DNA from: Pseudoxanthomonas sp. PXM02
GTDB taxonomy: Bacteria; Pseudomonadota; Gammaproteobacteria; Xanthomonadales; Xanthomonadaceae
Direction: 5' to 3'
DNA: 64,000 bases
Assembly (NCBI RefSeq): GCF_014851805.1
Contig: NZ_JACVAK010000001.1
Span: forward strand, 1,736,001-1,800,000
The position numbers were made by a program, and so were the translations under genes. Shown here in pieces: positions 14,078 through 64,000 of the stretch (positions are counted from its first letter, which is position 1; each line of letters starts with the position of its first letter). The notes under the pieces were generated by a model that saw nothing but the letters and a program-made list of their open reading frames with translations, was not told where the DNA came from and made no database searches.

Positions 14078-14081
14078 CACG

Positions 14082-16148
14082 TCACGCCATCGGCGTCTCG
14101 TGATGGAAGTGGCGCTTGAACGGCACGTCACCGGTGCGTGGCGCATCGAGTTCCTGCGCGTAACGGTGGCCCGCGTACACCGCATGCGCGATCAGGCCTG
14201 GCGCCAGCGCGTCGCCGATGCAGGACACGCTGCGGATTCCCATTCCTTCCCACTCGGCTTCGCGCTGCCGGAGCGCCTGGTAGAGCGCATCGTCCGGCAG
14301 GCGCGCAGTGACCACGACCACCGCATCGCAGTCGAGCGACTTGCTGGCGCCGCTCCACACCTGCTCCAGCGCAAGCGTGGTGCCGGTGTACCCCGTGACC
14401 ATGTGCGAGACGCACTGCTGCACGCCGAGTTCGGCCATCCGCCACTGGATATGGCGGTAGTCCAGCGTGTTCGCGCTCCACGAGGCGAACGTGTCGTCGG
14501 GCGTCAGGCAGGTCACGTCGCAGCCGCGCAGCCGCAATGCCTCCGCAACGACGCTGGCGGTGTAGAAGTAATCATCGTCGTAGACCACCACGCGACCTTC
14601 CGGCCAGCGCCCGTCCATCAGATCGTCCGGCGTGAACACGCGCGGGTTGCCGATGAAGTCCGCGATACCCAACCCGTGCGTGCGACCGAACCCGTCCCGC
14701 CGCCAGTGGCAGCCGGTGGCGATGACGACATGGTCCGCGCCGAAGTCGAGCACGTCCTGCGCGGTGAGCGCGGAATCGAGATAGGTGCTGACGTTCGCCC
14801 GCTTGCCGATCTGTCCCAGCCGCCAGTCGCGCACGCGTGCCCATTCGGCCAGGCCCGGCAAGCGCGCCTCGCGGGTGACGCGTCCGCCGAGTTCGCGCCG
14901 CGCTTCGGCCAGGTGCACCTCGTAGCCACGCTGGCCGAGCGCGCGTGCCGCTTCCAGTCCGGCGGGACCGCCGCCGACCACCAGCACGCGCGCCTCACTG
15001 GCCTTCGTCGCGATGCGCTCCGGATGCCAGCCCTTGCGCCACTCCTCGCCCATGCTGGGGTTCTGCGTGCAACGGATCGGCGAGATGGTCATGTCGCCGG
15101 AGACGCAGATGTTGCAGCCGATGCATTCGCGGATGTCGTCGACGCGGCCTTCCTCGATCTTGCGCGGCAGGTAGGGATCGGCGATCGACGGGCGCGCCGC
15201 ACCGATCAGGTCGATCACGCCACGGCGGATCTGCGAGACCATCGTGTCGGGCGAGGTGAAGCGACCCACGCCGACCACCGGTTTGGTGGTCGTCTTGCGA
15301 ACGAAGTCGATGAAAGGTTCCTGTGCGCCTTCGCGGGCAAAGCGCGACGGCACCGAGTCGTTGTACCAGGCGGCGAGATTGACGTCCCATAGATCAGGCA
15401 ATTCGGCCAGCAGGCCGACGATGTCCTGCGCCTCGGCCAGTTCCACGCCACCCGGCCCCAGCAGTTCCTCGGTGGCGAAGCGCAGTGCGACCGCGCAGCG
15501 ATGCCCGACCGCTTCGCGCGTGTCCTGCAGCACCTCGCGCAGCAGGCGCACGCGGTTCTCCAGCGAGCCCCCATAGGCATCCGTGCGCTGGTTGCGGCGA
15601 CGCTGCAGGAAATGCATCGGCAACGACAGGTCATGCGCGGCGTAGACATAGATGATGTCCATGCCGGCCTTCATGCCGCGCACGGCGGCGTCGCGATGCC
15701 AGCGCCGGTACTCGGCGATGTCGTGCAGGTCCATCGCGCGCGCCTGCGACGGATAGCCGTACTTGGATGGCTGGTGCGACGGCGCGAGCAGCACTTCCCG
15801 CGAGTACAGGTTGGAGGCGGTCGGCCCGTTGTGCGACAGCTCCAGCGCGGCCAGTGCGCCGTGCGCGTGCACCTTGTCGCACATCAGTGCCAGCGCGGGG
15901 ATATCGCGATCGTCCCACAACCGCGCCTCGACGTACGGCGTCAGATCGCTGCTGGGGTGGATCTCGCACTCTTCGGTCGACACCACGCCCCAGCCGCCTT
16001 CGGCCTTCACTTCGCGCATCGCCGCATGCGCCAGCGGCATCGCGTGGCCCATGCCGTTGCAATGCGGCACCTGGAAGAAACGGTTCTTCGTCGTCACCGG
16101 TCCGATGCGGACCGGTTCGAACAGAATGTCGTAGCGCGGATCACGCAC
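14082..16148 (-). CDS. TMADH-type FMN/FAD/Fe-S demethylase (N-methylproline or dimethylglycine type)
   Basis: 688-residue member of the trimethylamine dehydrogenase / 2,4-dienoyl-CoA reductase family. Residues 1 to about 350 form an old-yellow-enzyme TIM barrel binding FMN (PHCNGMGHAMPLAH, ELSHNGP). A [4Fe-4S] cluster follows in CIGCNICVSGDMTISPIRC (about 355-375). The rest is a Rossmann pair (VLVVGGGPAGLEAARALG). Close relatives are DgcA and N-methylproline demethylases. The gene is third in an operon behind a Rieske oxygenase and a permease and overlaps the permease by 8 nt. The context fits stepwise N-demethylation of a betaine. Which methylated amine is used is unknown, and DgcA-type dimethylglycine use is equally possible. 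Confidence 0.82.
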   Translation of the reverse strand: MRDPRYDILFEPVRIGPVTTKNRFFQVPHCNGMGHAMPLAHAAMREVKAEGGWGVVSTEECEIHPSSDLTPYVEARLWDDRDIPALALMCDKVHAHGALAALELSHNGPTASNLYSREVLLAPSHQPSKYGYPSQARAMDLHDIAEYRRWHRDAAVRGMKAGMDIIYVYAAHDLSLPMHFLQRRRNQRTDAYGGSLENRVRLLREVLQDTREAVGHRCAVALRFATEELLGPGGVELAEAQDIVGLLAELPDLWDVNLAAWYNDSVPSRFAREGAQEPFIDFVRKTTTKPVVGVGRFTSPDTMVSQIRRGVIDLIGAARPSIADPYLPRKIEEGRVDDIRECIGCNICVSGDMTISPIRCTQNPSMGEEWRKGWHPERIATKASEARVLVVGGGPAGLEAARALGQRGYEVHLAEARRELGGRVTREARLPGLAEWARVRDWRLGQIGKRANVSTYLDSALTAQDVLDFGADHVVIATGCHWRRDGFGRTHGLGIADFIGNPRVFTPDDLMDGRWPEGRVVVYDDDYFYTASVVAEALRLRGCDVTCLTPDDTFASWSANTLDYRHIQWRMAELGVQQCVSHMVTGYTGTTLALEQVWSGASKSLDCDAVVVVTARLPDDALYQALRQREAEWEGMGIRSVSCIGDALAPGLIAHAVYAGHRYAQELDAPRTGDVPFKRHFHHETPMA

Positions 16149-17466
16149 CCTCTGCCTCTGCGCGACGCCGTTGCCCCAGCAGGAAGTACAGCGGCAGACC
16201 GGCCGCCATCAGCGCCAGCGCCAGCCAGAACGGCTGCGCGCCCATGCCGATGAAGGCGAACACCGTATACGCCACACCCAGCACGGCTGCGACCAGCAGC
16301 GTGCGTCCGGCGCCACGATGTCCCCGCCACCACAGCACGCCCAGCGCCAGCGAGCAGCCCAGGTAAAGCGGCAGGTTGGCGGCGGTCACCACCGTGCTGA
16401 GGAAGGTGAAGCCGGCCACCGCCGAACGGCTGTAGTTCATCAGCACCATCACGCTGGCGAGCAGGGCCGTCAGCACCAGCGCACCGGCCGGGGCGCCGAA
16501 CCGATTGGCCCGCGCGAACACGCGGGGCATCGTGCCGCTCTCGGCCATGGTGCGCATCATCTCGCCGCTCAGCAGCGTCCAGCCGTTCAAGGCACCCAGG
16601 CCGCTGACGACGACGAACAGCGCAATCCACCGCCCCGTGCCTTCGCCGGCGAAGCGCTCCATCACCAGCGCGAACGGTGCGCTGGACTGGGCGAGCTCGG
16701 CATGCGGCAACAACAGCAGCGGCACCGAAGAAACCACGAGATAGATCGCAGCGGTGATCCACGTGCCCGCCATGGTCGCCCTCGGAATGGTGCGACCGGG
16801 ATCCCTGACCTTCGACGCGGGAATCGTCGCCGACTCGATGCCCAGCATGGCGAACAGCGCCAGCGTCGACGCCGCCATCGCATCGCCCAGGCTGATCGGC
16901 CTGGCGGGCGGGTGCGCGGCGAACGACCCGGGTGACTGCAGCAGCATCCAGGCACCCAGTCCCGCCACGGCCAGCATCGGCAGCAACTTCAGGACCGTGG
17001 TGACCACCTGCACGCGCCCACCGCTGCGCACGCCCAGCAGGTTGACGCCGACAAAGGTCCACAGCGCGCAAAGGCCCAGCACCGCAGGCGGCACGCGCGC
17101 GAGCGACGGGAAGATCGATGCGGCGTAACCGGCCACGCCGGTGGCGAGCGCGGCGAGGGTGATCCAGTTCGACACCCAGTACGACCACAGCACCACGTAG
17201 GCCGGCAGGCGACCCAGCGTCTGCTGCACATAGCCATACGGTCCGTCCGCCTGCGGCAGCAGGCGCGCCAGCTGCGCGAGTACCCGGGCCAATGCCAGGC
17301 AGCCCAGCACCGTGATGCCCCATCCCAGCAGCGCGTTGTAGCCGAATGGCGCCAACGACGCGGGCAGCACGAAGATGCCCATGCCGATCGTGTTGCCCAC
17401 CACCAGCGCGGTGCAGGTCCAGAAGCCGATCTTGCGGCCATCGCGCGGCAGCGTGGCCGGGTTCAA
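16141..17466 (-). CDS. APC-family amino acid permease
   Basis: 441-residue inner-membrane transporter with about twelve hydrophobic segments. Its N-terminal GNTIGMGIFVLPASLAPFG is the unwound helix-1 motif of the APC superfamily. The likely start is TTG 17466, which overlaps the Rieske stop as TTGA; no ATG near this point would preserve helix 1. The 3' end overlaps the flavoprotein start by 8 nt, so all three genes are translationally coupled. It probably imports the substrate (or exchanges the product) of the demethylation pathway. Confidence 0.85.
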   Translation of the reverse strand: MNPATLPRDGRKIGFWTCTALVVGNTIGMGIFVLPASLAPFGYNALLGWGITVLGCLALARVLAQLARLLPQADGPYGYVQQTLGRLPAYVVLWSYWVSNWITLAALATGVAGYAASIFPSLARVPPAVLGLCALWTFVGVNLLGVRSGGRVQVVTTVLKLLPMLAVAGLGAWMLLQSPGSFAAHPPARPISLGDAMAASTLALFAMLGIESATIPASKVRDPGRTIPRATMAGTWITAAIYLVVSSVPLLLLPHAELAQSSAPFALVMERFAGEGTGRWIALFVVVSGLGALNGWTLLSGEMMRTMAESGTMPRVFARANRFGAPAGALVLTALLASVMVLMNYSRSAVAGFTFLSTVVTAANLPLYLGCSLALGVLWWRGHRGAGRTLLVAAVLGVAYTVFAFIGMGAQPFWLALALMAAGLPLYFLLGQRRRAEAEGA

Positions 17467-18509
17467 TACGCGGCCCTCAGCAGGTTGTGGAAATGCCACA
17501 CGCCGCTTTCGCGCTTGGGACACAGGCGGCCGGCGTCGTAGAAGCCGGAGGCCAGGCCACGCTGCACCGCTTCGCAGATGCGGATGTCCTCGTCCTGCAC
17601 GTCGTCGCTGAAGGCCTGGTCGTTGGCGATGCGCGCCTGCGCCGCGGCATCCGCCGCGTAGTAGTAGTCGAACTCCACCCGGCAGCGCTCCGGCCCCAGC
17701 GGCAGGATGCGGTTGGTCTGCAGCCGCCCCGGCATGATGTTGAGCATCACGTTGGGATAGACGAAGTAGTAGAACGCGTCGCCATCCCCATAGATGTCTC
17801 CACTGTCGCGCAGCGGCGAGTGCTGCAGCGAATGCCAGGGGAACAGCTCGGTGTCGTAGGCACGGTAATCCAGCACCTTCGACAGGCCGGGGTGCACGTG
17901 CGGCAGGTGGTAGCCCTCCAGGAAGTTGTCCACGTAGACCTTCCAGTTGCACGCGATGTCGTAATGATCACGGTGGTGGAAGCGAATCGCGGCCAAGTCG
18001 ATCGGTGCGATGCGTTCGGCGATGCCGCCGTAGACCTCGTCGAAGGCGGGCACGTCCTCGTGCAGGGCGACGAACACCAGTCCCTGCCACGCCTGCACAC
18101 GCAGCGGCGGTAGGCGGATGTCGCTCATGTCGAAATCGGCCGCGCCCTGCATCTCGGGCGCGCTGCGCAGCTGGCCTTCCAGCGTGTAGGTCCAGCCGTG
18201 GTACTTGCAGTGCAATGCGCGCGCGCCCTTGCCGTTGCAGAGCGCCAGCGGCCCGGCGCGGTGCCGGCACACGTTGGGGAAGGCGCGCAGCACGCCGTCC
18301 TGCCCGCGCACCACCAGCACCGGTACGCCACCCACCTGTTCGACGATGTGGTCGCCCGGTTCCGCCAGTTGCGCCAAGTGGGCGACCAGCTGCCAGCTGC
18401 GCTGGAACACCGCCGCCTGCTCCATCGCCAGCGTCGCCTCGCCGGTGTAATAGCGGGCGGGCAACGCGCGTGCGCGTTCCAGGGGAAGGAGGCTAGCGGT
18501 ATCCGGCAT
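17463..18509 (-). CDS. Rieske non-heme iron oxygenase (betaine/stachydrine demethylase-like)
   Basis: 348-residue alpha subunit of a Rieske oxygenase. The [2Fe-2S] ligands are Cys81-x-His83 and Cys101-x2-His104. The mononuclear iron site is in NWKVYVDNFLEGYHLPHVH (His201 and His206), with a late Asp as third ligand. It resembles GbcA and Stc2, which remove a methyl group from glycine betaine or stachydrine. The start is ATG 18509. These enzymes need a ferredoxin reductase partner, yet none is encoded next to it. The gene leads a three-gene overlapping operon with a permease and an N-demethylating flavoprotein, which supports quaternary amine catabolism. Confidence 0.87.
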   Translation of the reverse strand: MPDTASLLPLERARALPARYYTGEATLAMEQAAVFQRSWQLVAHLAQLAEPGDHIVEQVGGVPVLVVRGQDGVLRAFPNVCRHRAGPLALCNGKGARALHCKYHGWTYTLEGQLRSAPEMQGAADFDMSDIRLPPLRVQAWQGLVFVALHEDVPAFDEVYGGIAERIAPIDLAAIRFHHRDHYDIACNWKVYVDNFLEGYHLPHVHPGLSKVLDYRAYDTELFPWHSLQHSPLRDSGDIYGDGDAFYYFVYPNVMLNIMPGRLQTNRILPLGPERCRVEFDYYYAADAAAQARIANDQAFSDDVQDEDIRICEAVQRGLASGFYDAGRLCPKRESGVWHFHNLLRAAY

Positions 18510-18607
18510 GGCGTTCCCGTCAGTGGCAGCGCCGCGGACGACGCTGCCCAAGCCTACGCGCCGGAGCGGTCGCGGCACAGTGCCGAGTCACCCAGGCCCG
18601 GCAACGG

Positions 18608-18633
18608 AAAGCCCCGGTACGGACCGGGGCTTT
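18608..18633 (-). terminator. Hairpin terminator after cydX
   Basis: An 11-bp perfect stem (AAAGCCCCGGT / ACCGGGGCTTT) with a 4-nt loop lies 28 nt after the cydX stop and before the Rieske gene. Its U-tract is short (three T), so termination may be partial. Confidence 0.6.
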
Positions 18634-18661
18634 CGTGGCTGTGAGACGACGACCGGTGCCG

Positions 18662-18775
18662 CTATGGATCGCGTCCGGCCTCGCGATCGTTTTCGCGCAT
18701 TTCGTACCACATGCCATTGAGGATGGCGAAGCTCGCCGCCAGTCCGGCGCCCAGGATCCAGCTGAAGTACCACAT
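18662..18775 (-). CDS. cydX: Cytochrome bd oxidase small subunit CydX
   Basis: 37-residue single-span membrane protein beginning MWYFSWILGAGLAASFAILN, the CydX (YbgT) signature, with a short charged tail. It starts 10 nt after cydB ends and is read in the same direction. CydX stabilises the haem environment of bd oxidase and is needed for full activity in E. coli. Its presence points to a CydAB-type rather than a cyanide-insensitive CioAB-type oxidase. Confidence 0.92.
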   Translation of the reverse strand: MWYFSWILGAGLAASFAILNGMWYEMRENDREAGRDP

Positions 18776-56350: not shown

Positions 56351-57051
56351 ACCCGTCGACCGCCATGGACGCCGATGCCCCCGGCCTGGCCGAGCACGCC
56401 GCGGCGATCCGCGCGATGGCACAGGCCGGCGCCGGCGACCTGCAGGGCACCCTGCGCGACCTGCGCACCGTCCTGCTGTCGGCCGACCCGCGCGCATTGC
56501 GTCGCAGCGTCGGCTTCTGGGGACGCCTGATCGGCCGCGACATCCGCCTCGCCGCCGAAGCGCGGTCGCTGCGCGAACGTAGCGGGATCCTGCTGCGGCA
56601 GGCCGGCTTCGAAGCGACACGACTGCGCCACCAGCACGAGACGCTCGCCGCGCATGCGCAGCGGCTGCGCGATGCCTGCGCGCACCTGCAACAGGAGATC
56701 GACGGCCTGGCACGCCAGCAGGCGACGGCGGAAGGCGGCACGCCTGCCGGCACCTCGCGGCTTGCGCACCTAGTCACCCTGCGCAGCGCGTACGAGATCA
56801 CCGCCAGCCAGCTGGACCTCGTCGCCGCCAACGCACTCGCCATCGCCGAGCGGCATGCACTGCAACTGCCCCGGCTTTCCGTGCTGCTCTGCCAGCAGCA
56901 GGGCGTCGCCGCCGGTGCCGGGCATGGAATGCAGCTATCCTCCGCCATGCGGACGATCGATGAGCTGGAAGCCCACATCGAACATCTGCCCGCACCGCCC
57001 GCCACACCGGCGGTGGCCGCGCAGCAAACCAACACCCAGGAGGCCCCATGA
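56347..57051 (+). CDS. Coiled-coil protein of unknown function
   Basis: 234-residue soluble protein, mostly helical (FWGRLIGRDIRLAAEARSL, then heptads from about 75 to 130 and a second helical pair to 215) with a Pro/Ala tail. I recognise no family. GTG 56347 overlaps the AAA+ stop as GTGA; ATG 56365 is an alternative. The stop overlaps telA by ATGA, so it is translated with both and probably bridges the ATPase and TelA. Confidence 0.72.
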   Translation: MNPSTAMDADAPGLAEHAAAIRAMAQAGAGDLQGTLRDLRTVLLSADPRALRRSVGFWGRLIGRDIRLAAEARSLRERSGILLRQAGFEATRLRHQHETLAAHAQRLRDACAHLQQEIDGLARQQATAEGGTPAGTSRLAHLVTLRSAYEITASQLDLVAANALAIAERHALQLPRLSVLLCQQQGVAAGAGHGMQLSSAMRTIDELEAHIEHLPAPPATPAVAAQQTNTQEAP

Positions 57052-58148
57052 CGACGAATTCCGAACAGACGCTGGTTCCCGCGGCGCTGTCGCCGCAGCT
57101 GCTGACCGACCTGGGCCTGGAAAGCGCCGACATCCCGCGCATCCAGGAAGCCGCGAAGGCACTGCAGGACATCGCGCCCGGCAACCTGCACACCTACGGT
57201 CGCGAAGCCACCACCAAGACCAGCGCCTTCAGCACGCAGCTGCTGGACAAGGTGCGCAACGCCGACCTCGACAGCAGCGGCGACAAGCTCGGCGAAGTGG
57301 TGCGCATCGCACGCTCGCTGAACCTCGAATCGTTCCACGGCCGCTCCAAGCTGCCGATCCTCGGCCCGCTGATCGACAAGATGCGCGCGACCAAGGATGA
57401 CCTGGTGCAGCGCTACAGCTCGACCAACCGGCAGATCGACCAGCTGATGGCGGATGTCGGCAAGACCCAGCAGATCCAGCAGCAGCGCGTGCGCGAGTAC
57501 GACCAGATGCACGACATCGTGCTGGACGAGCGCCGCGAGCTGGGCGTGCACGTCGCCGCGGGTCGCGTCCGCATCAGCGAACTGGAAGCGGATCTCGCGT
57601 CGCTGTCGGGCCTGGAAGATCCCGAATCGCGCACCCGCCGTGCGGCGCTGGACACCGCGCTACGCCTGATCGACAAGCGCGTATCCGACCTGCAGGTGCT
57701 GCAGCACGCGGCCGATCAGACGCTGCCGATGATCCGCCTGATCCAGGCCAACGCCATCCAGCTGATCGAGAAGTTCAGCGCGGTGCGCGACGTCACCATC
57801 CCGATGTGGCGCAACCAGTTCGCCATCCAGTTGTCGCTGGCCGACCAGCGCAATGCCGTCGAGCTGGCGAACGCCATCGATGACGCCAGCAACGAGCTGA
57901 TGCGCAAGAACGCCGAACTGGTGCACTCCACCGCGGTCGGCACCGCGCGCGCCAACCAGCGCTCGGTGATCGATATCGAGACGCTGCGCACCGTCAACGA
58001 CACGCTGATCCGTACCGTCGAGGAAGTCCGCGAGATCCATCGCGAAGGCATGGCCAAGCGCAAGCAGCTGTCCACCGAACTGGTCGGCATGCGCGAAGAC
58101 CTCGAAAAGCGGCTGGCCCTGCCGACGGCGGGTAACGCGACGGCCTGA
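57048..58148 (+). CDS. telA: TelA family protein (toxic anion resistance)
   Basis: 366-residue helical protein with the TelA pattern: LDKVRNADLDSSGDKLGEVV, then LPILGPLIDKMRATKDDLVQRYSSTNRQIDQL, IPMWRNQFAIQLSLADQRNAV and RANQRSVIDIETLRTVNDTLI. TelA proteins are associated with tellurite and antibiotic tolerance and with membrane stress, with unknown biochemistry. Last gene of the operon, followed at 27 nt by a strong hairpin. Confidence 0.9.
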   Translation: MTTNSEQTLVPAALSPQLLTDLGLESADIPRIQEAAKALQDIAPGNLHTYGREATTKTSAFSTQLLDKVRNADLDSSGDKLGEVVRIARSLNLESFHGRSKLPILGPLIDKMRATKDDLVQRYSSTNRQIDQLMADVGKTQQIQQQRVREYDQMHDIVLDERRELGVHVAAGRVRISELEADLASLSGLEDPESRTRRAALDTALRLIDKRVSDLQVLQHAADQTLPMIRLIQANAIQLIEKFSAVRDVTIPMWRNQFAIQLSLADQRNAVELANAIDDASNELMRKNAELVHSTAVGTARANQRSVIDIETLRTVNDTLIRTVEEVREIHREGMAKRKQLSTELVGMREDLEKRLALPTAGNATA

Positions 58149-58170: not shown

Positions 58171-58209
58171 AAAAAAGAACGGGCCGCCCCAGGGCGGCCC
58201 GTTCTGTTT
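58171..58209. terminator. Strong hairpin after telA, right U-tract interrupted
   Basis: A 14-bp perfect stem (AGAACGGGCCGCCC / GGGCGGCCCGTTCT) has an A-run on the left (58171-58176), making a good terminator for leftward transcripts. The matching T-run expected on the right is broken: the stem is followed by GTTTCC. This is where the foreign, lower-GC DNA starts. Confidence 0.85.
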
Positions 58210-58215
58210 CCTGGT

Positions 58216-58357
58216 GATTAGCAATAGATAGTCCAAACGCAGCCTAGCAACTCCAAGGGATTCAATGTCGGGCCTACCGATTTGGTCACGAGAAATTAGC
58301 CCAAACGAGCCAAATACGCTTCTCCGAGATCGTCGACGCGAGAAAAGTTGGCTCAAC
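58216..58357. repeat. Candidate TnsB-binding repeats in the left end
   Basis: Two related direct copies are visible: TAGTCCAAACGCAGCC (58229-58244) and TAGCCCAAACGAGCC (58297-58311). A third, weaker one, CGAGAAAAGTTGGCTCAAC (58339-58357), resembles the extended second copy CGAGAAATTAGCCCAAAC (58289-58306). Several imperfect ~20-bp repeats within ~150 bp are typical of Tn7-like ends. The match is by eye and modest. Confidence 0.4.
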
Positions 58358-58430
58358 AGTTTATTCCTTGGCAGACGATCTTCACGCCGTGAAACGTGCT
58401 TAACTGATCGGCCCGGAGGAAGTCTTGGCC

Positions 58431-59909
58431 ATGTCAGCCATCCTGCCGCTTCTCCTCGCAAATCAGACCCTTTACAGCTGGTGTAGCCACGCGCACCAGC
58501 TGAACTGCAGCACTTCTGCACATCAGACCAGCGACCAGCTCTTTGGCACGCCACATTCCGCTCTATGCCATGACTTCCCAGCACATCTTCGGACGTTGAC
58601 GCAGAGGACTCGTGGTCAGTTGGGCCCGCCTCGCGAACTAGCACTCCGCCATACACTCTTGGGCTACTTCCTGCCCACCATCGATGACAAAAAAGCAGAA
58701 GAAACAATAGACCTCATTACTGAAGGGGCCATCCCTAGTTTGAAGATGCGGCTGGGGATCACGGCTAGCCGGGTGGGCGGCTACCATCCGCTCAAGCTAT
58801 GTTCTGACTGCGCTGGCGAAGAGCAAGAGCGGCTTGGATATTCGTACTGGCATATCGAGCACCAGTTTCCTTCAAGCTTTGTTTGCCTGAAGCACGCTCG
58901 GCCACTGGTCTTTCTCCGAGACGCTATTACGCCCGTCCATCGACGCTACTGGGTGACTCCGGCGGACCCCCAGGATTGCAAACTAATCGAGGTACAAGTT
59001 CCCAGCGAAACCGCAATGGCGACTCTTTCTCGGCTCGCTCGCGATTCCCTGTACTTGGCGATGCTTCCGCCTGGTGGCCTTTCAACTGCGCGTGCTGCTG
59101 GCGGGTATCAGCGCCTGCTTCGCGGACGAGGACTGGCGACCAGTCACGGAAACTTGCGCATTGAAAAGCTCGTCTCCCTGATTCGTGAACGTTATCGGGG
59201 CCTGGAGGGGCTGCCGGGAATGGCGCCGCTGGAATCAGTCGGTTACGAATGGCCGGGTTTGGCGGCTTCACTCTCCAGAAGAAGTCCCCAACCCGGACAC
59301 CCGCTGAAGCATCTCCTCCTTGTCGGTGCGATCACCGATAGCTGGGAGGAGTTTGTGCAGGCCTGCGAATCTGGCTGCGATAGCGCGCCCCTCGAACACC
59401 AGACCAATCCGCGACCACTGAAAGAGCGGGATCTCACACGATTCAAACAACTCGTAGCTGAAGGAGGTATGTCGATCTCAGGAGCGTCAAAGATTGTTGG
59501 CGTCTCTACAACAACCGGCGTGCAGTGGGCAACGCGATTCGGGATTCCATTCATCAGCCGAAGCAAGTCTGTGACCCCCGCATTGGTTGGTGAAATCCGG
59601 AGACTGCTGGCGAAAGGAGAACCCGTCGGGTCGATAGCTGTGTCCTCTGGCGTTTCTTCCTCCGTCGTCAATCGCATTCTCGGCGCGGATGAGCGCCTAA
59701 AAGCACTACGAAGCCGTTCCACGTTCTCCCACAGGAAGTTTGTTTCACGCACCAAGTTCTCGCATCTCTGTAAGCGCTACGCCCACCTTCCTCTATCTGA
59801 ACTTAGAGGACTGCCGGGAAACGGCTACGCGTGGCTCTACAGAAATGATCGACCATGGCTTACTAAAGCACTGCGCCGCCTCGGACGGCTGCCCAGCAGC
59901 GGCTCCTGA
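58431..59909 (+). CDS. tnsD: TnsD/TniQ-family target selector 1
   Basis: 492-residue TniQ-domain protein. The N-terminus LPLLLANQTLYSWCSHAHQL plus QLFGTPHSALCHDFPAHL is the TniQ start. A zinc site is formed by Cys124-x2-Cys127 and Cys152-x2-His155 around YSYWHIEHQFPSSF. A C-terminal helix-turn-helix (MSISGASKIVGVSTTTGVQW) and the late motif GYAWLYRNDRPWL are typical of full-length TnsD proteins that recognise a fixed chromosomal site. ATG 58431 has GGAGGAAG upstream; TTG 58425 is an alternative. It is next to the element's left end, facing tnsC. Confidence 0.88.
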   Translation: MSAILPLLLANQTLYSWCSHAHQLNCSTSAHQTSDQLFGTPHSALCHDFPAHLRTLTQRTRGQLGPPRELALRHTLLGYFLPTIDDKKAEETIDLITEGAIPSLKMRLGITASRVGGYHPLKLCSDCAGEEQERLGYSYWHIEHQFPSSFVCLKHARPLVFLRDAITPVHRRYWVTPADPQDCKLIEVQVPSETAMATLSRLARDSLYLAMLPPGGLSTARAAGGYQRLLRGRGLATSHGNLRIEKLVSLIRERYRGLEGLPGMAPLESVGYEWPGLAASLSRRSPQPGHPLKHLLLVGAITDSWEEFVQACESGCDSAPLEHQTNPRPLKERDLTRFKQLVAEGGMSISGASKIVGVSTTTGVQWATRFGIPFISRSKSVTPALVGEIRRLLAKGEPVGSIAVSSGVSSSVVNRILGADERLKALRSRSTFSHRKFVSRTKFSHLCKRYAHLPLSELRGLPGNGYAWLYRNDRPWLTKALRRLGRLPSSGS

Positions 59910-59919
59910 GGTCAACCCG

Positions 59920-61158
59920 GTGTCACAGGTCACATTGGGCTATGTTCCCTCTCTTCGCCCTGGGGCTTTGCTATTCACGCTAGCTGCGTTTCGATACTTT
60001 CAAACAGGAAGCAGAGGCAAGAGTGCGATCCTCGTCGATCTCTATGGCACTACCGGTGGCCGAAAACGAAACCTATTTGGAGAGAGCGTCGCCACCATTT
60101 CCAAGCGCGCTTTTGGGGACTTGGTCCCCCCGAGGGATGTCTTACTCAGGCACACATTCTTCGGCGTCTATTCGAGAGCGATGTCGCCGGCAGCCTCAGC
60201 CGCGTGGAGTGACGCGCTCATCGCTGGAGATCGATCACACAGGGCACAAAAGGTCCTTCGCAATTTCAATTCTAGGCAGTTCCATTTGGTTACCCGGAGT
60301 CTCCGATCCTGTCCTCAGTGCGTAGCCGATGACATCAACGCCTACGGATTTGGGCAGTGGCGCATTCTCCACCAGATCCCTGCACTTCTTTGCTGCCCCG
60401 AGCACGGCCTCGCATTGAACGATGAAGTATCCGGGGGAATCGCTGGAAACCTTGGGCAGTACGCCCTTCCACGCGGCAAGATTTCAACTCCCGCCAACAG
60501 AATTCCTTGGGCGGCATCCGACGGGCACTCGACGTACCTCTATCTCTGGACGCAGCTGCTGGAAGGCAAGCTGCCTGTCGTCACAAGTCACGCATGGGCA
60601 GCCTACATGGACGTTGTCGTATCTAGGTTCGGCGGCATAGCTTCTGCCCAGGCTGAGATTGAATCCACTATCCGGCGAACTTGGTCGACGGGCATTGCGA
60701 ACATCACATCCCGAACCGGGCGCCATATCATGGAGAACTTTATCCACGCCGAGCTTTCTCACAACTCAGCACCGGGCAGGCTTGCTCAAAAACTAGTTGT
60801 CCTCGGCGCAGTTTCCGCCTTGGGAATCGATCTGCCCACGGCTGGAGATTCATCTCAGTTGAGGCTCGACCTAAGCTCGAAACTCAATGAAGACTCTGAG
60901 CCGCCATTGCAGGAGCAATTGCGTCGGTTCCTCCTTGACGTCGCACTCCCCGGATCACTGGCACCATTTCTTCTGACTGATCGGAACATCACACAGACCG
61001 CCAGAGAAGCCGGCGGTAATCGTCGCCACGTCTGGAAAGCAATGCAGAAGATCCCCGATCGACTTCTCGAGGAAATTGCCGCTACGCAAAGGTGGTCGGC
61101 CAAGTCCTGGGTCACGATTGAGCTAAAAAGACGCATGGGGACCGGCCGCGACTCCTAA
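59920..61158 (+). CDS. tniQ: TnsD/TniQ-family protein 2
   Basis: 412-residue second TniQ-family protein. GTG 59920 follows the first gene by 10 nt with TGAGG upstream; ATG 59845 would overlap the preceding gene by 65 nt. The TniQ N-terminus (LGYVPSLRPGALLFTLAAF) and zinc site Cys131-x2-Cys134 ... LLCCPEHGLAL are present. The C-terminal region after ~300 is shorter than in TnsD 1 but has a possible HTH (ITQTAREAGGNRRHVWKAM). Presumably it works with, or as an alternative to, TnsD 1 in target choice. Its partner requirement is unknown. Confidence 0.82.
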   Translation: MSQVTLGYVPSLRPGALLFTLAAFRYFQTGSRGKSAILVDLYGTTGGRKRNLFGESVATISKRAFGDLVPPRDVLLRHTFFGVYSRAMSPAASAAWSDALIAGDRSHRAQKVLRNFNSRQFHLVTRSLRSCPQCVADDINAYGFGQWRILHQIPALLCCPEHGLALNDEVSGGIAGNLGQYALPRGKISTPANRIPWAASDGHSTYLYLWTQLLEGKLPVVTSHAWAAYMDVVVSRFGGIASAQAEIESTIRRTWSTGIANITSRTGRHIMENFIHAELSHNSAPGRLAQKLVVLGAVSALGIDLPTAGDSSQLRLDLSSKLNEDSEPPLQEQLRRFLLDVALPGSLAPFLLTDRNITQTAREAGGNRRHVWKAMQKIPDRLLEEIAATQRWSAKSWVTIELKRRMGTGRDS

Positions 61159-61175
61159 CGCTCCAGACTTGTTTC

Positions 61176-62612
61176 TTAAATGTCGAGCTCACCCTGATGC
61201 GCCTGCTCACCGGCAAACCTAGCATGTGCATCCGCACCTCTCCGAAGGTCATCCTCAGATAGATTCTTCCGAGCAGCCATATCCTGCTCCTTCTTCTTCT
61301 GTTTCCTCGATTCTTGCTGTTTGACCTGGCGTGAAATTCGGCTCAACGCTTGGCCAGCTTCCTCCGGCCTCGTCGCCATCGGGCCCCCAATGCTTCCTTG
61401 GTTTGGTGCCCTTGGCTGCTGAGGAATGTCATCAAACCTGGAGCTCGCATTTCCGGTTGATACGGCTCGGGCAATTTCCAGGAGCTTCGCGACGTTGGGA
61501 CTCGAGGCGGCGGCCTTGAGGTCTTCTACTGTGAGACGAGCGGCGCCCCCCGCTCGACGCAGTGCGATCTTCTGCCCCTCCTTCCAGACGGCCACGAATG
61601 TGCCCGGAATCCCCCCATCTACTCCAGATGTTGCGTCTTGTATCTCATCGATCGAAGGAGCTTCCTCGCAGAGGGTGAATCGTGTCGCCCCAAGTAGAAA
61701 CTGATTTGACCACCAGGAGTCGGCACCCTGCCTCGCGGGACTCAAGACATGCCACCCATGCGTGACAAATCGACGGAGCAACTGCGCACTCGCATCTAGT
61801 TCGCTAAATGCCAACGGATTCCCCATCAAAAGAACCGGAATACCAAGGTTCATCAATCCGAGGAAGTACTGGATGAACTCGTCGCCCCACACGTTCTCTG
61901 CCAGCGTGTTTGGCTGATTCTCGTCGATGGCCAGCAATCCGACTCTGTGGAACGATAGGACTTTAGCCACAAACACCATGGCCTCATCGAGGTTCTTCTG
62001 GCGTTTTAGGTCTGCCGCGTAGTCTGTGCTAAGCAGTGCATCCAGCGCCCCGATGATTGCCGCGAATAATCCCCTCCTTGTCGCATTGCTAGGCGCATTC
62101 ACAATGAGATACGTCACTTGCGTGAGTACCGACCAGCCACAATCCCGCCTTTCTCTATGGACGACGAACTGTTGAGGTGCCAGAACCGACAACACGCGTT
62201 CTACAAGCGTCGACTTCCCCAGCCCCGTGATTGCCGCCAAGACTGAGCCCCCAGCCCTTTTTCTCAGGGATTGGAGTTGAACTCTGTTCACACTGTCTGC
62301 CAACGCCAGCATGTTGATGCGGCGTTGCTCCTCTAGGGACATTGGATTCCTTTGCATCAATCCGGACCGAAGCATAAGTTGGATCTCAGCAGCCACATGC
62401 ACATGGGGAGATATTGGCCAGTAGTGATCATCGGAGAGCCCTAGAAGCGATTCCCGTTGCTCAGGTGGCAGGCTACGCCAGTCAACATTGGCTAGCGGCT
62501 CCCTTCGAAGCGCCGCTGGAATATCTTTCACCGGCAGGAACGGAGCGAGGGCCTCGAGCAGGGGATTGGGACCCAACGCCAACTCAGGATGATCGCGTCG
62601 CTGGTTGCTCAT
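61176..62612 (-). CDS. tnsC: TnsC-like AAA+ transposition regulator
   Basis: 478-residue AAA+ ATPase. Walker A is AITGLGKST (residues about 127-135; Ala replaces the first Gly of the classical motif), and Walker B is VGLLAIDENQ. The region FIQYFLGLMNLGIPVLLMGNPLAF matches the TnsC sensor region. A charged C-terminal tail (KQQESRKQKKKEQD) may contact TnsB/TnsA. ATG overlaps the tnsB stop by 4 nt. It converges with tniQ 2, with 17 nt between stops. TnsC forms filaments that bridge target selector and transposase. Confidence 0.9.
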   Translation of the reverse strand: MSNQRRDHPELALGPNPLLEALAPFLPVKDIPAALRREPLANVDWRSLPPEQRESLLGLSDDHYWPISPHVHVAAEIQLMLRSGLMQRNPMSLEEQRRINMLALADSVNRVQLQSLRKRAGGSVLAAITGLGKSTLVERVLSVLAPQQFVVHRERRDCGWSVLTQVTYLIVNAPSNATRRGLFAAIIGALDALLSTDYAADLKRQKNLDEAMVFVAKVLSFHRVGLLAIDENQPNTLAENVWGDEFIQYFLGLMNLGIPVLLMGNPLAFSELDASAQLLRRFVTHGWHVLSPARQGADSWWSNQFLLGATRFTLCEEAPSIDEIQDATSGVDGGIPGTFVAVWKEGQKIALRRAGGAARLTVEDLKAAASSPNVAKLLEIARAVSTGNASSRFDDIPQQPRAPNQGSIGGPMATRPEEAGQALSRISRQVKQQESRKQKKKEQDMAARKNLSEDDLRRGADAHARFAGEQAHQGELDI

Positions 62613-64000
62613 GCAGCAACTTCTTTCATGAAGGCCTCCATGGCCTCGGATGCAGCATCGCCACGTTCGACGACAGCTTCCACAGCGTCCGTAGGTAAGG
62701 CTTGTTTCTCTGCAGCTGCGCTCGGACCGCTCGCCGACTTGAGCGCCTGCATTTCCTCGTCACGGTTCTTGCGCAAGCCGCCTACCATGCTCTTCTGTGA
62801 GGGCTTTTTCTCTTGCGCCGCGAGCTCTTTCGTCAGCTCGGACTTACCGTGATTCGTTGTCGCCTGACGACGCAGAAGTTTACTCAAAGCCTTCTGATCC
62901 TCGTCACCCCGTTGTACGTCCCTGACCAAATCACGCTCTTCGACCCATTGGACGAAGTCGACGACGGTCCCCCTTTCTTTCATGTCCACATCGGAACTGA
63001 CGTTAGGTATGCTGGTCAGCCCTTGATCTGGAAGTGCAAACCAGACACGACTAGTGTCGGTTTCGCTTTGTCGAATCGTGATGCTCACCGCGCTATCTTT
63101 GGCGACCGCCTCTTTGAACTGAGCAGAGCTCTGCAATGCTGGCGCGTAGAACCGAAGGTCTGGGACATGGCGCCGTCCATCTGGCATCAGCAGCCTGATT
63201 CCGCGCTTGGTCATTACGGCCTTGGTTGGCGGCATGGTGAAGGCCCGCAGCCGCTCCAAGTCGTACGGAAGGTCTGCCCGCATGTTCTTCTCCATCATCC
63301 ATTTCAGGATGTTGATGCGCGTAGGCCGCACGCCCTCCTCCAGCATTGCCGTGGGCGCCAGGCGTGCCACTTCCTCGTTGTTGTACTCAATGACCATCAG
63401 CAGGAATTCGTGCATGTACTCGGCGTAGTTCCATATCGCCTCCAATGCTGGATGTCTTTCTCCGCGCTCCCGCCGCTTCCCGCGTGTCGTCCCCGGCAAC
63501 TTGTGGTTTAGCTCTTTGTGATGGGTGTGGTGCTGCGTTTCGACGTCCGACTTGCTCTGCCCGCTCCAGGACTTGGTGTACTCCACAGCGAAGCGAAACT
63601 CCTCCTCCGCGGCTGTTGTGGTTTTTGACTTCAGCTCCCCATTGTCGGCGATGATCAACTTGCAGAGCAGCGATGGCCAATCTTCATCGGCAATCGTGAT
63701 TCCGAATCGCGCGCAGATCTCGACCTTACTCTCCGCTCCGCACAAGATCGCCTGATGGGCCGTCCAAGTGCTTGGCGACTCCCAACCCACATAGAAGCCG
63801 ATCACGACAGTCGATCGAACTTCTTTCAGAATCGTGATGTGCATCGGCGGCAGCTTCCTGAGCCGCGAGAACATGGACGTCAGGTAGGCATCGTTGGTCG
63901 TGGAGTCGAGCATCGCCATCTGGCCAACAGTGGACACTTGATCTTGCGTGCTTCCCGGCGTTGGCTGCACGGTCAAACGATCCAAACCGATGCGCCGCTT
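62609..64000 (-). CDS. tnsB: TnsB-like DDE transposase (N-terminus outside window)
   Basis: The visible 464 codons hold the catalytic core and C-terminus of a Tn7-type transposase; the frame stays open to the right edge, so the true start lies beyond. Numbering from codon 63985, the triad is Asp27 (AMLDSTTND), Asp114 (IIADNGEL) and Glu149 (SDVETQHH). The 87 and 35 residue spacings match TnsB of Tn7 almost exactly. FYVGWESPS and LNHKLPG are further family marks. The C-terminal ~100 residues are Lys/Gln/Ala-rich, the region that contacts TnsC. Confidence 0.9.
   Translation of the reverse strand, partial: KRRIGLDRLTVQPTPGSTQDQVSTVGQMAMLDSTTNDAYLTSMFSRLRKLPPMHITILKEVRSTVVIGFYVGWESPSTWTAHQAILCGAESKVEICARFGITIADEDWPSLLCKLIIADNGELKSKTTTAAEEEFRFAVEYTKSWSGQSKSDVETQHHTHHKELNHKLPGTTRGKRRERGERHPALEAIWNYAEYMHEFLLMVIEYNNEEVARLAPTAMLEEGVRPTRINILKWMMEKNMRADLPYDLERLRAFTMPPTKAVMTKRGIRLLMPDGRRHVPDLRFYAPALQSSAQFKEAVAKDSAVSITIRQSETDTSRVWFALPDQGLTSIPNVSSDVDMKERGTVVDFVQWVEERDLVRDVQRGDEDQKALSKLLRRQATTNHGKSELTKELAAQEKKPSQKSMVGGLRKNRDEEMQALKSASGPSAAAEKQALPTDAVEAVVERGDAASEAMEAFMKEVAA

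Follow-up and report, generated by a model that had tools for sequence, protein, structure and literature searches.

What does a Tn7-like transposon do with two different TniQ-family target selectors, both of which face tnsC? The question is raised by the right-hand part of the DNA analyzed here, a stretch of 64,000 nucleotides from Pseudoxanthomonas sp. PXM02 that we call the window (G000:C4:1736001-1800000, where G000 is the PXM02 genome; unprefixed positions are window positions). A sequence-only reading had proposed a Tn7-like transposon with two TniQ-family genes convergent to tnsC-tnsB, and the open frames, the Pfam and PDB matches and the transposon ends all agree with that description. 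There is no support for regarding two selectors as unusual in themselves: in the portion of Faure 2023 (PMC10293859) used here, 1,048 dual tniQ-tnsD loci stand against 2,905 single ones. Dual loci are common and glmS homing is classical; the PXM02 layout is a rearranged variant on these known themes.

Positions 58212-64000 hold the left end and the greater part of the transposon core (Table 1), where the sequence-only reading had begun the element at 58205, 7 bases off the left end. The frames of tnsD, tniQ2, tnsC and tnsB are all four open in the part that it indicated. Pfam assigns TnsD (E 9e-22) and TniQ (E 1e-9) domains to the frame 58425-59909, a TniQ domain (E 8e-12) to 59740-61158, and AAA_22 and TniB to 61176-62612. 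TnsB has no Pfam match, either as the window fragment or at full length, but the full-length sequence does match Tn7 TnsB in the PDB (E 8e-34). The rightward extension that had been suggested for tnsA led to a gene whose product matches Pfam TnsA-like_N at E 0.0012, below the curated cut-off. Both TniQ genes point toward tnsC, and 17 bases separate the stop of tniQ2 from that of tnsC. TniQ2 probably starts at GTG 59920 rather than at TTG 59740; an alternative ATG at 59845 would give a protein of 437 aa and an overlap with tnsD.

Table 1. Features of the PXM02 transposon and its telA flank
Feature	Position	Strand	Evidence and remarks
telA, toxic anion resistance family, host gene	57048..58148	+	Pfam TelA E 3e-70; same-genus matches
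Target site duplication, TTTCC on + (GGAAA read from glmS)	58207..58211		
Left end, begins TGGTGATTAGC	58212..58430	+	G290 alignment begins here
tnsD	58431..59909	+	492 aa; TniQ and TnsD domains; Pfam; PDB Tn7 TnsD E 3e-14
tniQ2	59920..61158	+	412 aa from probable GTG start 59920; Pfam TniQ, alignment A1, dN/dS
tnsC	61176..62612	-	478 aa AAA+ ATPase; Pfam AAA_22/TniB; PDB Tn7 TnsC E 1e-22
tnsB, C-terminal part	62609..64000	-	whole gene extends to C4:1800858, 749 aa
tnsA	C4:1800837-1801742		just beyond right edge of window
Shared gene beyond tnsA: XRE-type regulator			HTH_31, below curated cut-off
Shared gene beyond tnsA: 204-aa protein			no Pfam match
Shared gene beyond tnsA: Band_7/SPFH protein			
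Shared gene beyond tnsA: 311-aa protein			no Pfam match

Where does this element reside? The left end sits in the gap between telA and glmS, which is attTn7, and the other end adjoins glmS on contig C7. The right end that the sequence-only reading had called for was found there, starting at G000:C7:255437 next to a GGAAA (G000:C7:255432-255436) that matches the duplication on the telA side. On the glmS side of PXM02, the glmS stop is followed by 17 bases, then by GGAAA and TGGTACGAGCTAATAGTTGGTCCAACT; on the telA side, again read from glmS, GGAAA adjoins TGGTGATTAGCAATAGATAGTCC, with spaced putative TnsB-like sites. Three such putative sites occur in the left end, near 58223, 58295 and 58343 (the first two found by pattern and the third by eye), and three more lie 20 and 34 bases apart in the glmS end of both PXM02 and G290, a genome from another genus of Xanthomonadaceae. 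A three-site layout also precedes TnsD in the genome G911, with every site at 3 mismatches. Throughout the 80 kb of PXM02 and 52 kb of G290 that were scanned, AATAGWTGGTCCAACT at up to 3 mismatches is confined to the ends.

The empty site provides a further view of the insertion. Stretches around telA were fetched from seven same-genus genomes, five of which have telA followed by a convergent glmS, and the joined PXM02 flanks align with the empty telA-glmS gap in all five; in G689 and G695, the remaining two, different genes come after telA and glmS is absent from the fetched stretch. Window sequence on the left side of the element is collinear with the G699 chromosome save for one 4.6-kb stretch without a G699 counterpart, at 14078-18680. 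Tn7 itself inserts about 20 bp past the glmS stop with a 5-bp duplication and its dense end beside glmS, according to the parts of PMC2918618 and PMC11406308 drawn on here, and the latter adds that the dense end tends to face glmS in Tn7-like elements. The PXM02 element has the same hallmarks: a dense end facing glmS, a duplication that begins 17 bases past the glmS stop (18 in G290), the 5-bp length of that duplication, and paired ends with repeated putative sites of TnsB type, along with tnsA, tnsB, tnsC and a TniQ/TnsD selector.

The relative in G290 has both ends on one contig (C1:1119346-1153379, 34,034 bp), with a TTTTT duplication and the same five-gene layout. Identity between the PXM02 and G290 proteins is 84% for TnsD, 77-79% for TniQ2, 90% for TnsC, 84% for TnsB and 81-82% for TnsA. 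Four genes beyond tnsA are also common to the two elements (Table 1). Two of these, encoding the XRE-type regulator and the protein of ~205 aa, adjoin tnsA (L004:10360-11381), and their relatives likewise adjoin tnsA in G290, G785, G013 and G888; a conserved regulatory pair of such elements is possible. The G290 cargo includes Gabija-type GajA/GajB, an RT_UG5-nitrilase-type reverse transcriptase gene and type I restriction-modification subunits. PDC-S52 is also present among the defence cargo (L013, L075).

The interior of the PXM02 element is harder to read, and its lack of contiguity in the assembly counts against our preferred explanation of the locus. Contigs C4 and C7 each end between the two transposon ends, without mutual overlap. 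The DNA to the right of the core (C4:1806478-1816940) and that behind the right end (C7:256208-262681) match the G699 chromosome about 158-230 kb from telA, and one 9.5-kb inner piece matches, at least partly, all 37 other same-genus genomes searched. Either the element has taken in chromosomal DNA, or a rearrangement has split it. A size of ~72 kb, considered once both ends had been matched, was rejected because the inner DNA beside both ends is chromosome-like. The C4 and C7 contig ends resemble what we take to be pieces of an IS30-type transposase gene, which may be the reason that the assembly broke inside the element. Simple k-mer and repeat searches for a right end within ~5 kb of tnsA gave nothing convincing. 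The PXM02 copy could conceivably be a dead, split remnant, as the chromosomal matches of the two inner stretches and the separate contigs would allow; the intact state of both ends, of the duplication and of all five genes speaks against this, and we regard it as rather doubtful. Such a remnant would in any case be compatible with the readings of how the whole element works.

Among known systems, Tn7 of E. coli is alike in its TnsA, B, C and D relatives and in the glmS site, 5-bp duplication and dense end at glmS (as described in the text portions cited above). The arrangement of the genes is unlike that of Tn7. In PXM02, tnsD and the second TniQ gene are inverted at the left end and face tnsC, and tnsA is set apart from the right end by accessory genes and cargo. 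Because the selectors are convergent and genes intervene between the right end and tnsA, the co-directional tnsABCDE layout, read from the right end, of Tn7 sensu stricto is not what we find here. Pfam TnsE has no match among the nine PXM02 core proteins and eight G290 cargo proteins scanned.

The sequence-only reading had also noted the absence of CRISPR arrays and Cas genes from the part visible to it, and this was borne out in a larger region. No CRISPR-like repeat array occurs in the PXM02 core (L004:2200-13400) or in the whole G290 element; the sole direct-repeat family in the scan is a two-copy 23-nt match, 3.3 kb apart. Likewise, no Cas effector has a Pfam match among the nine PXM02 core genes or the scanned G290 cargo genes; PADLOC gives weak Cas4 labels (E 1e-6) to a helicase-nuclease and RT/Cas1_IIIb labels to the reverse transcriptase in the G290 cargo. 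The genes and DNA scanned thus lack the cas effector genes and CRISPR array that mark a CAST. The PXM02 core differs in this respect from the type I-B1 CAST, which otherwise offers a parallel in its combination of a TnsD directed to glmS with a shorter TniQ (PMC11406308, in part). With two tniQ/tnsD genes and one tnsC, one selector a long TnsD and the other a shorter TniQ, PXM02 resembles the dual loci of Faure 2023 (PMC10293859); the portion of that paper used here reports no convergent pair, and PXM02 differs further in that no Cas effector was found. The literature passages that we covered, some of them from PMC8649781, contain no description of a convergent selector pair with accessory genes and cargo between the right end and tnsA.

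How different are the two selectors? TnsD carries the motif GYAWLYRNDRPWL, in keeping with the full C-terminal recognition region ascribed to it from the sequence, and TniQ2 is the shorter protein, as had also been noted (412 versus 492 aa). Pfam finds no TnsD domain in TniQ2, and its match to the PDB structure of Tn7 TnsD is weak, covering 39 residues (E 6e-4). When the profiles of the two proteins are compared, the alignment is confined to the N-terminal 157 columns (hhalign probability 98%). Single-sequence AlphaFold models were unusable, with mean pLDDT values of 38 (TnsD) and 36 (TniQ2). By the NG86 method, dN/dS is 0.27 for TniQ2, the highest of the five, 0.20 for TnsD and 0.14-0.20 for TnsABC; YN00 gives 0.37 for TniQ2 and 0.25-0.26 for TnsD. 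The zinc-finger Cys and His residues are invariant in all four aligned proteins. With its 412-aa open frame and signs of purifying selection, TniQ2 cannot be called a decayed duplicate of TnsD; such decay was one of the outcomes that the sequence-only reading had named as fatal to its proposal. The tandem of TnsD and TniQ2 occurs in three genomes: PXM02, G290 and G911. In G911, no tnsABC genes lie in the 3 kb from TniQ2 to the contig end, and this genome is not one of the six that matched TnsB among 395 of the family, in a draw that may not have included it.

A survey of relatives covered 28 stretches, picked mainly by TnsB or TniQ2 similarity and so not an unbiased sample, of which 22 have tnsC and TniQ matches and the other six are without tnsC, TniQ or both. 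The selectors face tnsC in 3 of the 22 (PXM02, G290 and G785). Two TniQ genes are present in nine, and in seven of these they are co-directional with tnsC. The elements of G313, G527 and G666 are alike in having tnsABC with a small and a longer TniQ and unlike in that all five genes are co-directional and the small TniQ falls on another branch. The trees leave out 2 of 34 TniQ and 2 of 25 TnsC matches, belonging to the other PXM02 element and to the fragment G633. A TnsC clade unites PXM02, G290, G785, an Acidovorax plasmid and an Azonexus plasmid (support 100/99). A TniQ2 clade joins PXM02, G290 and G911 to the selector of G785 and the small TniQ of Acidovorax, at a support of 94/98 that is below the tree program's own star mark, with several long branches flagged.

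In G785, a TniQ2-type gene convergent to tnsC is the sole selector found beside tnsABC, so that the two TniQ genes are not always paired. It lies on contig C64; glmS is on C12, with no tns match in the 2.2 kb after glmS. The protein has 21% identity and a long branch, and it groups with TniQ2 at 91/64. The ends of the G785 element were searched for and not found, and no cluster of TnsB-like sites appeared in the Acidovorax and Azonexus plasmid stretches. In place of TniQ2, the Azonexus member of the TnsC clade has a 598-aa selector that falls on another branch. Its plasmid (Azonexus hydrophilus, L098) carries two co-directional TniQ/TnsD genes, whose products have 598 and 493 aa, and tnsB is separated from tnsC by an IS21-type insertion. 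Conversely, the TnsD-type selector that lies at or close to glmS in G013, G888 and G103 is unaccompanied by TniQ2. The PXM02 layout is not alone in having DNA that separates glmS from tnsA, since G013 and G103 also have such DNA (9.5 and 18 kb, respectively). In G888 (C1:631421-664807), one glmS is followed by two different tnsABCD sets, apparently stacked Tn7-like elements. PXM02 also has a second, different tnsB-tnsC-TniQ element (L007:12090-16870, on G000:C6; 820, 328 and 443 aa), with no separate tnsA match. A tblastn search of 72,556 plasmid records with TniQ2 found nothing at 1e-5, although it missed the small Acidovorax plasmid TniQ as well; scans of genome contigs (TnsB, TnsC) and viral contigs (TniQ2, TnsC) confirmed no relative.

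We lean, with restrained confidence, toward a Tn7-like, tnsA-containing transposon resident in attTn7, in which TnsD provides glmS homing and TniQ2 is a separate selector or adaptor, most likely for a second target class. By analogy with Tn7, the C-terminal part of TnsD would bind the end of glmS and its TniQ domain would load TnsC; TnsA and TnsB would then cut and join, presumably in a cut-and-paste reaction, inserting the element about 20 bases past the glmS stop. The site, the 5-bp duplication and the orientation with the dense end nearest glmS are as observed. TniQ2, which keeps the TnsC-contacting TniQ domain and has a C-terminal half unrelated to that of TnsD, would be a working selector or adaptor and could send the element to a second class of targets, giving it a double life between a home site and other sites. 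Such a double life is known from Tn7 and from CAST elements. In several CASTs, dual selectors serve two pathways (PMC11406308, in the part consulted). Our best guess, that TniQ2 runs a second target pathway, comes from G785, a member of the same TnsC clade in which the sole selector found is of TniQ2 type and is encoded on a contig other than that of glmS. Weighing against it are the missing plasmid match for TniQ2, the weak kinship and unfound ends of G785, and the different selector of Azonexus; moreover, both complete two-selector copies (PXM02 and G290) are at glmS, and no insertion with TnsD and TniQ2 outside glmS was found among the loci examined.

The position of those two copies would suit a heteromeric selector, in which TnsD reads the DNA at glmS and TniQ2 helps to load or cap TnsC. 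The GTG of TniQ2 lies 10 bases past the TnsD stop on the same strand (or the genes overlap, from the ATG), and the pair is kept in PXM02, G290 and G911. It is difficult to reconcile an obligatory partnership with a TniQ2-type gene without TnsD in G785 and with the TnsD-type selectors that do without TniQ2 in G013, G888 and G103, and Tn7 TnsD requires no partner TniQ; we therefore consider the heteromer improbable. Perhaps TniQ2 is instead no selector at all: it could inhibit TnsD, act as a regulator or be a host-range relic. In favor of this are the lack of any known insertion directed by TniQ2 and a dN/dS above those of the other four; the conserved zinc-finger residues and the solitary TniQ2-type selector beside tnsABC in G785 point the other way, and we give this idea little credence. 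Returning to TniQ2 as a separate selector, a bolder and quite tentative extension is that a selector lineage with a distinct C-terminal half begins with it and guides elements of this TnsC clade, independently of CRISPR and TnsE, to a target other than glmS. In that case the convergent TniQ2-tnsC block, alone in G785, would be ancestral, and TnsD would have been added in front of it for glmS homing.

The PXM02 element is a glmS-homing transposon without a CRISPR array whose two selectors have only the TnsC-contacting domain in common. Together with its TnsC-clade relative that has a single selector, it makes up a clean natural set bearing on the role of the second TniQ in dual tniQ-tnsD elements, and on how transposons swap their selector genes.
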